Part shown: piece by piece, positions 30,521 through 58,317 of the stretch
How the letters are laid out: each line of letters opens with the position of its first letter
How positions within the stretch are numbered: position 1 is the first letter of the stretch
Notes under the pieces: model-generated
Seen by the model: the letters and a program-made list of their open reading frames with translations, nothing else
What the model was told of the DNA's origin: nothing
Databases searched by the model: none
Source of the DNA: Alistipes sp.
Lineage (GTDB): Bacteria; Bacteroidota; Bacteroidia; Bacteroidales; Rikenellaceae
NCBI GenBank assembly: GCA_017630455.1
Contig: JAGBVG010000074.1
Location: forward strand, 104,193 to 168,192
Direction of reading: 5' to 3'
Length of the DNA: 64,000 nucleotides
Program-made: the position numbers and the translations under genes

Positions 30521-32362
30521 CTATTCTGCGTCGAGACCCAGAACATCGAGCATCTCTATAAGACGCTCGTTGCGTGATATGAGGTGCTTCAATCTATCCT
30601 CGAGGGTTATGGGTCGCGAAACCTTTATCTGCTCGTTTACTATGACCTCCAACTCGATATATCCCACAGCCTTGCTCAGCGAGCTAAAGAGCTTCTGGAG
30701 GTCGCTCTTCTGCTGCATAATCTCGTTGTAAAGCTCCTGCGACTGCACCTCCACCTTCACGGTGTTGCCCTCCACGCTCATACTCTCCTCGAAGCGCGAG
30801 CCGATACGTGGTCGTGTCGATAGCAGTGTCTCTATGATACGCTCCTTGGCGAGGTTGAGCTTCTCCTCGCACTGAGGGTCTACCGTCACGGTGTTACGCT
30901 CCGCTTTGGCACTCTCCTCCTCGCTCTCCTCCGATACGGTTTTGGCACCACCACATAGCAACTGGCTGAGCGATACACTTCCTGTTCTTGGGCGTGTTGT
31001 TGGCGTAGGACGCTTCACCTCACTCACCTCCGTAGGCTGCGGTGTCTGCTGCGCCTGCACTGGGGTTTGTCCCTGCGCTGATGTCACTCCTTGCGCCATT
31101 GGAGTCTCCCTGACTGGTATTGGTGCGGTGCTCTGTGTCGGCGCGGCAGCTGCCTCAGGTACTACAACCTCTGGGCTCTTAGCTGCGGGTTGCGGTGCTG
31201 GCTGTGGCGTTGCGATGAGGTCGGGAAGCGAAAATGAGGTCTCGAAACTCTCAAACCCTACCTCTTCATTTTTTTTTTGGCTGAGACCTGCAATTTTCAT
31301 AAGTCCCAGCTCTACAAGTAGTCGTTGATTTGACGATTGGCGTATCTTGCCGTCCGCCTCCGTAAGGAGCGATATAGCACCGAAGAGGAACGCCTCGTCA
31401 CATTTTGTTGCCTGAGCCTTGTAACGCTCGACGAGAGTTCCCGTGAACTCCACGAGGGATATCGCAGGGCCTTTGGCCATCAGCAGGTCGCGCATATGTG
31501 CGTTGAGGCCCGAGATAAACACCTGTGGCGAGAATCCGCGCGACAGCACCTCGTCGAAGCGGATGAGTGTGTCGATATAGTTGCCGGCAAGGAGCAGCTC
31601 CGTAACCGAGAAGTAGGTGTCGTAGTCGAGGACGTTGAGCGTAGCCGCCACATCCTTGTAATTGAGTGTGTTACCACAGAACGACACAGCCTTGTCGAAC
31701 ATCGACAGTGCATCACGCATACCGCCATCAGCCTTGTGTGCTATGAGGTTTAGTGCCTCGTCATCTGCCGTAACACCCTCCTTGTCGGCGATATAGCGCA
31801 GATACTCTACACCATCCTCCACCTTTATACGGTTGAAGTCGTAGATCTGGCAACGCGACAAGATGGTAGGGATAATCTTATGCTTCTCGGTTGTTGCGAG
31901 GATGAAGATGGCGTGCTGCGGCGGCTCCTCCAAGGTTTTGAGGAAGGCGTTGAACGCTGCAGACGAGAGCATATGCACCTCGTCGATTACGAATACCGAG
32001 TAGCGACCCTGCTGAGGGATGATGCGCACCTGCTCGATGAGGTTGCGGATATCATCCACCGAGTTGTTTGACGCGGCATCGAGCTCGTGGACATTGAGCG
32101 AGCGACCCTCGTTGAACGAGCGGCACGACTCACACTCGTTGCACGCCTCGCCAGCCTGAGGATTCAGGCAGTTGATAGCCTTGGCGAAGATACGTGCGCA
32201 GGTTGTCTTACCCACGCCGCGCGGACCACAGAAGAGGTAGGCGTGAGCCAGCTGACCACGCTCGATAGCGTTCTTAAGTGTCGATGTAATATGTCGTTGT
32301 CCCACAACCGATGCAAAGGTCGCGGGGCGATACTTACGTGCTGATACTACAAAATTCTCCAT
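30521..32362 (-). CDS. dnaX: DNA polymerase III gamma/tau subunit
   Basis: Clamp-loader ATPase of the replicative polymerase. Walker A is CGPRGVGKTTCARIFAKA, followed by the zinc-binding cysteines (CLNPQAGEACNECESC), Walker B VFVIDEVHMLS and sensor 1 LATTEKHKIIPTILSRCQ. Domain III ends near residue 360. The remaining 250 residues are a Pro/Ala/Gln/Thr-rich linker and a C-terminal tau-like domain. At residue 362-365 the coding strand holds ten consecutive A (31269-31278) in frame CAA AAA AAA AAT; a -1 shift or one inserted A gives AAA TGA, i.e. a 365-residue gamma-like product. This is first in a run with tyrS and folB. Confidence 0.96.
   Translation of the reverse strand: MENFVVSARKYRPATFASVVGQRHITSTLKNAIERGQLAHAYLFCGPRGVGKTTCARIFAKAINCLNPQAGEACNECESCRSFNEGRSLNVHELDAASNNSVDDIRNLIEQVRIIPQQGRYSVFVIDEVHMLSSAAFNAFLKTLEEPPQHAIFILATTEKHKIIPTILSRCQIYDFNRIKVEDGVEYLRYIADKEGVTADDEALNLIAHKADGGMRDALSMFDKAVSFCGNTLNYKDVAATLNVLDYDTYFSVTELLLAGNYIDTLIRFDEVLSRGFSPQVFISGLNAHMRDLLMAKGPAISLVEFTGTLVERYKAQATKCDEAFLFGAISLLTEADGKIRQSSNQRLLVELGLMKIAGLSQKKNEEVGFESFETSFSLPDLIATPQPAPQPAAKSPEVVVPEAAAAPTQSTAPIPVRETPMAQGVTSAQGQTPVQAQQTPQPTEVSEVKRPTPTTRPRTGSVSLSQLLCGGAKTVSEESEEESAKAERNTVTVDPQCEEKLNLAKERIIETLLSTRPRIGSRFEESMSVEGNTVKVEVQSQELYNEIMQQKSDLQKLFSSLSKAVGYIELEVIVNEQIKVSRPITLEDRLKHLISRNERLIEMLDVLGLDAE
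31269..31278 (-). promoter_or_regulatory. A10 slippage site inside dnaX
   Basis: Ten A on the coding strand between the ATPase part and the tau linker. The zero frame continues, whereas the frame reached by -1 ribosomal slippage or by a one-base transcriptional insertion hits TGA as the very next codon. Thermus thermophilus dnaX uses an A9 run for transcriptional slippage and E. coli uses A6G for ribosomal frameshifting; function here is inferred. Confidence 0.6.
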
Positions 32363-58269: not shown

Positions 58270-58317
58270 TATCCCACTTGGAGTAGTACAAAGCGTACAC
58301 CCAAGTGGGATAACTTT
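58270..58317. terminator. Bidirectional terminator between DUF3467 and frr
   Basis: 12-bp inverted repeat TATCCCACTTGG / CCAAGTGGGATA (58270-58281 and 58301-58312) with ACTTTTTG on the plus side and ACTTTTTTG on the minus side; serves both convergent genes. Confidence 0.85.

Follow-up and report, generated by a model that had tools for sequence, protein, structure and literature searches.

Why bacteria make a short form of the clamp-loader subunit has long been debated, and the dnaX gene in the stretch of Alistipes DNA analysed here (64,000 nucleotides, called the window below) raises the question of whether a run of ten A at the end of its domain III coding part serves to make such a form and, if so, at which step of gene expression. 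The gene product matches NCBIfam NF011531 at 705.7 bits (cut-off 685), and further matches are to TIGR02397 (dnaX_nterm), Pfam DNA_pol3_delta2 and Pfam domain III (PF12169; 24.6 bits with a cut-off of 24.4, C-terminal limit at residue 365). The features of the gene and its tract are the following.

30521..32362, minus strand: dnaX, clamp-loader subunit tau of 613 aa, stop codon included (NCBIfam, Pfam)
31269..31278, minus strand: putative A10 slippage tract, codons 362-365 (coding-strand A10)
31266..31268, minus strand: TGA closing the frame of an A11 transcript (or of a -1 shift), predicted 365-aa gamma-like protein
31258..31260, minus strand: TAG closing the frame of an A9 transcript (or of a +1 shift), predicted 367-aa gamma-like protein
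30524..31268, minus strand: linker and C-terminus specific to tau, which the predicted short product would lack

Ten T stand at 31269-31278 of the plus strand, and the dnaX coding strand accordingly reads AGC CAA AAA AAA AAT GAA around its A10, with CAA as codon 362. A preliminary description had placed an A10 run from codon 362 onward, and both its coordinates and its reading are exact; its claim that a -1 shift or an added A leads to AAA TGA after 365 residues agrees with the computed frame, which ends ...SQKKK and then stops at once at TGA (predicted product 365 aa, 40.5 kDa). Exact as it was on the A run and on the stop after an added A, that account missed the second closed frame and a hairpin on the 5' side. 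The A9 or +1 frame reads ATG AAG AGG before TAG, for a predicted product of 367 aa and 40.8 kDa; full-length tau has 613 aa and 67.6 kDa. Two sequence marks of the Thermus type are present in the window, namely a homopolymeric tract of at least nine A in the dnaX coding strand and nearby stops in both non-zero frames; the type is further marked by mRNAs of mixed A length and by comparable amounts of the short and the long protein.

We propose that RNA polymerase undergoes programmed slippage at the A10 tract, with the hairpin most likely setting how often or in which direction it slips, a reading that we consider likely, and we hold with still more confidence that slippage makes a short DnaX form. 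RNA polymerase would lose register on the rA:dT tract, giving mRNAs with A10, A11, A9 and other lengths. Those with A10 (or A10 plus or minus 3) would be translated into tau, and the other lengths would run into TGA or TAG within a few codons, yielding a gamma-like subunit that lacks the C-terminus of tau and is about 365-367 aa long. The hairpin would form in the nascent RNA and, as in an intrinsic terminator, end a single base short of the tract; it could affect how often or which way the polymerase slips, by pulling on the RNA or by preventing backtracking. From the comparisons that follow we infer that slippage occurs, that a stable gamma is made and that the hairpin has a part in it.

Relatives were sampled at several depths. 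For the genus, 61 genomes were searched and dnaX was taken from 59. Named records comprised the best 80 of 578 matches, mostly Alistipes and also other Rikenellaceae, from a search with six peptides; because one of these spans the run, the named-record set could lean to run-bearing genes. The 54 clusters found without the run-spanning peptide all carry the run (54/54). The closest relatives that bear a name are assemblies of gut Alistipes, which suggests an Alistipes-like member of the Rikenellaceae. For the family 70 of 97 matching genomes were taken and for the order 70 of 74; 106 genomes matched in the class, 26 of them left out, and 78 in the phylum, 28 of them left out. The class and phylum regions were partly hand-picked, leaning partly to short open frames, so that the shares of run-bearing and split genes at these two depths are biased and rough. 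Sequences were clustered at 97% identity over 300 nt upstream for the near set (genus and named records) and at 90% for distant lineages. One locus whose contig ends before the site (L306) and ten loci of other classes with no tblastn match (L402-L409, L413 and L414) were left out of the counts, and clusters with a contig end near the run were marked '?' or 'contig end'. Gap and shuffle tests used 60 of the 122 run-bearing near clusters and the position profile 50.

A run of this kind is rare in the genome and nearly universal at this place in the relatives. Within the window 0.20 matches to A9 were expected and 3 found, two of them being overlapping matches of the dnaX run; in the whole assembly (2.0 Mb in 93 contigs, 90% complete, 7% contaminated) there are 37 A9 matches at 35 sites, with A10 at two sites, the other of which appears intergenic. 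Of 123 near clusters, counting that of the window, 122 have A9-A12 (genus 54/54, named records 68/69), the sole exception being L102. The run is A10 in 97 of the 122 (window included), A9 in 3 and A11 or A12 in 22, and the 192,755 nt of near-cluster dnaX genes hold no second run of at least nine A. A chance origin is ruled out because the run is conserved in relatives, and the genome's A9 and A10 counts tell against it as well. Further away, a run of at least nine A is present in 35 of 43 clusters from other genera of the family and in 115 of 171 distant clusters (order 32/70, class 74/81, phylum 9/20), and in other families its position within the linker varies.

Another coding A9 of the genome served as a specificity control. 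None of 24 relatives examined exceeds A6 near that place; the own genome was left aside in this count, five of 30 matching genomes gave no locus, and several alignments start well inside the protein. The gene (L143, 312-2471; genome G000, contig C10, about 58281-58289) is a 719-aa frame that joins a radical SAM, CofH/MqnC-like part to PASTA domains, with the A9 exactly at the junction, where A8 or A10 would close the frame within about 10 codons. Since it is kept in 0 of the 24 relatives, this A9 is probably due to chance or recent.

The distribution at greater depth has some structure of its own. Within the order, the run lies near domain III in 32 of 70 sampled clusters from other families (L242-L310, L377, L430), and in other orders of the class, partly hand-picked, it is found in 74 of 81; a repeated loss inside the order is suggested. 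Five loci (L235, L238, L254, L278 and L436) have no run near domain III and carry A9-A10 about 130-315 nt past the expected domain III end; these may be displaced slippage sites. Among the run-less dnaX genes no consistent T, G or C run was found as a substitute.

Immediately upstream of the tract lies the hairpin, with these parts.

31301..31310, minus strand: hairpin 5' arm, GCTGGGACTT (10-bp stem, covariation)
31290..31300, minus strand: hairpin loop of 11 nt, ATGAAAATTGC
31280..31289, minus strand: hairpin 3' arm, AGGTCTCAGC (stem fold, pair counts, position profile)
31279..31279, minus strand: single-base spacer between hairpin and A tract, the C of CAA

Together GCTGGGACTT ATGAAAATTGC AGGTCTCAGC (31280-31310) form a 10-bp stem (-13.2 kcal/mol) with a single base left between it and the A10, and the gap between hairpin and run is likewise 1 nt in 44 of the 60 sampled near clusters. 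All ten pairs form in 55 of the 122 near clusters, at least eight in 101 and at most six in 18; the mean of 8.76 pairs formed drops to 1.75-5.80 when the partners are slid by 1-6 columns. In the position profile (50 of 122 near clusters) the hairpin energy peaks at -10.5 with a one-base gap to the run and reaches -4.7 at best outside the last 12 positions before it, and in synonymous shuffles of 60 of the 122 near clusters the mean was -7.78 at most in 100 trials, as against -11.11 observed.

Because the helix sets third codon positions opposite each other, synonymous covariation could be tested, and this bears on the reading that competes best with a role for the hairpin, which is that GC content or codon bias of the lineages accounts for its covariation and that the A tract slips without it. 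We regard this reading as unlikely, while giving it more weight than any other rival. The helix diagonal (i+j=40) ranks first of 61 in the 120 nt with a mean excess pairing of 0.192, whereas the next reaches 0.061, so that the other third-third pairs of the same stretch show no such excess. The third-third pairs of the helix, 11-29, 14-26, 5-35 and 8-32, rank 1, 2, 17 and 39 of 703, and a tree simulation with independent sites gave p values of 0.0003, 0.0027, 0.0007 and 0.005, respectively; of nine non-helix pairs put through the same simulation, two chosen for high rank gave p of about 0.006 and the rest at least 0.05. Pair 11-29 is found as A-U, C-G, U-A and G-C. RNAalifold, run on all 122, recovered only 5 hairpin pairs at -1.21 kcal/mol, the covariation term being 0.47 (of seven control blocks, six yielded no structure and one a 3-pair structure), and because this consensus is weak the case for covariation rests on the third-position tests. 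On these tests, comparison of the near relatives establishes a covarying hairpin.

The competing reading draws on those lineages in which the hairpin is weak or missing, and on accounts of A9 slippage in Thermus that leave a hairpin unmentioned in the portion of the review at hand (PMC5009743). The shuffle test gives a weak result for the family's other genera, where the observed -8.31 compares with a null mean of -6.62 and the null extends to -8.55. Run-less members of the family fold less at this place (-3.33, n=9) than those with the run (-8.31, n=35), and three of the nine run-less relatives still fold a hairpin there. Against bias as the cause stands the position of the signal in distant lineages, where hairpin sequences are unrelated (for example L282, L284, L245 and L420) and the energy nonetheless peaks next to the run. 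In 115 distant clusters the abutting hairpin has a mean of -5.51, with a mean of -3.81 for synonymous shuffles and none of 200 shuffles reaching -5.51, and the signal by position of the hairpin 3' end is strongest 1-3 nt ahead of the run, at -2.2 to -2.7, beyond all 186 other positions (mean -0.87, best -1.58). A hairpin individually significant at 0.05 was found in only 16 of the 115, and the nine phylum-level clusters taken alone gave no distinct peak. The hairpin is enriched in distant lineages, though weak in many of them, and on balance we lean toward its stimulating slippage.

The sequence 3' of the run is highly variable among near relatives, and what is kept in it is the closure of both off-frames. 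Both stop within 7 codons after the run in 118 of 120 measurable near clusters, compared with 3.5% (upstream) and 5.2% (downstream) of control sites in the same genes. On the +A side the frame meets a stop within 7 codons in every one of the 120 measurable clusters, and the A-1 frame does so in 98% of them, its stops falling into 52 different position-and-context types. The preliminary description had proposed, as its own check, that the run and the stop after an added A be conserved, and the relatives bear this out, with the run in 122 of 123 and the +A-side stop within 7 codons in 120 of 120, despite highly variable sequence 3' of the run. Comparison across relatives thus establishes the tract, the two closed frames and the selection on them.

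The frame of tau itself moves. Of 272 run-bearing clusters, 215 have tau in frame 0, 41 in the +A frame and 8 in the -A frame, 8 being undecided, and of the distant clusters with a decided tau frame 107 of 111 have both others closed within 10 codons. With the two remaining frames closed so early, tau would be able to move among phases 0, +1 and -1 in the course of evolution. A stop closes frame 0 behind the run in 51 of the 272 run-bearing clusters, where tau would accordingly need recoding, as opposed to 1 of the 65 clusters without a run; in the window, by comparison, tau is one 613-codon frame. Among near relatives the tau frame changes at least four times on the tree, with both arrangements mixed. 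Homopolymer assembly errors could explain single cases, among them single -A ones; they do not easily explain the +A arrangement common to L311, L312, L314 and L315, whose four genomes belong to a single genus and are each listed as 100% complete. As a separate matter, three loci from three other Bacteroidales families (L274, L299 and L279) have a frame 0 that closes after 40, 45 and 18 codons, respectively, and no long frame is opened there by either +A or -A; L274 and L299 have A10 and L279 has no run, and either a second shift site may lie further on or the gene may be damaged.

These frames bear on the possibility that gamma arises as in E. coli, by programmed -1 ribosomal frameshifting on A AAA AAA with a faithful mRNA, which we judge improbable. 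The heptamer A AAA AAA lies within the run, the -1 frame stops immediately, and a single tRNA-Lys(UUU) was found in the genome (about 90% complete; 35 tRNA hits, 30 hit loci typed). E. coli likewise has one tRNA-Lys (UUU) only. With this single tRNA, shifting on A AAA AAA is physically possible and could contribute. The heptamer A AAA AAG of the E. coli type is absent from the window, which has A AAA AAA followed by AAT. At least four of six matches to AGGAGG occur upstream in 76 of 122 near clusters and in 269 of 976 control sites, four of six being the score that the AGGGAG of E. coli itself attains by the same measure; loose matches to a Shine-Dalgarno motif are common here, and the comparison is not a clean one. 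Within the 22 nt upstream, however, AGGAG, GGAGG, GAGG and AGGGAG are found in 0 of 122 and GGAG in 2, and downstream folding is no stronger than at control sites (mean MFE -14.28, n=120, versus -15.92), while the same analysis of E. coli dnaX recovers AGGGAG and a downstream fold of -23.2. The closure of the +1-side frame is not needed for -1 shifting, and in E. coli that frame runs for 12 codons; in 8 of the 272 clusters tau would need one A less. A hairpin juxtaposed upstream of a shift site, as here, attenuates -1 shifting on 70S ribosomes, according to the parts of the report available to us (PMC6321510), which argues against such a mechanism.

We favour slippage over a ribosomal shift because the A-1 frame is also closed, tau occurs in three phases among relatives, and the Shine-Dalgarno motif of E. 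coli and a strong 3' structure are missing. On the same grounds the choice of slippage in the preliminary description appears well founded.

Ribosomes may also slide on poly-A and terminate in either frame with no signal at the level of RNA polymerase, as in the work of Koutmou, and the closure of both off-frames in dnaX would suit this, since sliding of E. coli ribosomes on iterated AAA ends at out-of-frame stops in the sections of that study at hand (PMC4363877). The minimum run given there for E. coli is A11, which 22 of the 122 near clusters attain (A11 or A12) and which exceeds the runs of the other 100 (97 A10, window included, and 3 A9); sliding also leaves the abutting 5' hairpin unexplained, and we consider it very improbable here. 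Conservation of the run for its amino acids (Gln/Lys-Lys-Lys-Asn after domain III) with no decoding role, to which we give almost no credence, would fit residues that are largely conserved in near relatives, but it is rejected by codon choice, the first two full codons of the run being AAA in all 244 cases, whereas Lys upstream in the same near-cluster genes is encoded 3.3 times more often by AAG (776) than by AAA (235), and it does not account for off-frame stops strongly enriched in both frames, for a tau needing recoding where frame 0 closes after the run (51/272), or for a run at varying linker places in other families.

The slippage element proposed here is present in 106 of 151 sampled clusters from other families and orders of the class (the class partly hand-picked), and its retention in these and in 122 of 123 near clusters argues for strong selection on gamma, or on its ratio to tau, in a large phylum. 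More broadly, dnaX of Bacteroidota may carry a composite element, a terminator-like hairpin plus A9-A13, that sets the gamma:tau ratio at RNA polymerase while the tau phase drifts among 0, +1 and -1; we put the chances of this wider reading at about even. If it is true, this would be, to our knowledge, the first cellular housekeeping gene known with hairpin-stimulated slippage. A design indifferent to frame would explain how split dnaX genes stay functional, and such genes may be taken for broken ones in annotation. A hairpin beside the tract is also a testable signal of programmed slippage, and other genes could be screened for it.

Slippage on A runs in dnaX is already known, from Thermus and from the GeneTack survey of 2013; what seems new is a hairpin abutting the dnaX slippage run. 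Among the titles and abstract openings listed from the open-licence literature, none pointed to a paper on slippage in dnaX of Alistipes or of the Bacteroidota in general, or to one on a hairpin beside such a run in dnaX.

The closest known counterpart is dnaX of Thermus thermophilus, which slips in transcription on A9 with stops nearby in both other frames, as described in the available portions of two papers (PMC1088944, PMC5009743). The Alistipes gene shares with it a coding tract of at least nine A, tau in frame 0 and close stops in both other frames; unlike the Thermus gene it has A10 and a covarying, abutting 5' hairpin, belongs to another phylum, and is known here from its sequence. In the 'reversed' dnaX genes of GeneTack, gamma is in frame 0 and tau needs recoding; the accessible part of that report (PMC3711429) counts 17 such genes in 12 genera, nine with A10, and names three Chlorobi; the nine A10 species may include Bacteroidota. 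Tract kind and gene are the same as ours, and 49 of our 272 run-bearing clusters have tau in the +A or -A frame, whereas in the window tau is in frame 0 and the GeneTack description, in that same part, mentions no 5' hairpin.

With the -1 frameshifting of E. coli dnaX the window has in common that tau and gamma are expected from one gene and that a stop comes right after the shift site; it differs in having neither AGGGAG nor a strong 3' stem-loop, and in having both frames closed and an upstream hairpin instead. For the hairpin, the nearest parallel is the IS630-type element of Roseiflexus, where a nascent RNA stem-loop directly 5' of the motif enables slippage, as summarised in the consulted part of a review (PMC5009743). 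Both have an adjacent 5' stem-loop, which in the window is 10 bp long, 1 nt away and covarying. The Roseiflexus type, as presented in that part, is a T5C5 motif with a single-base deletion in an insertion sequence, whereas the window has, in a cellular replication gene, a pure A10 that is closed in both directions.
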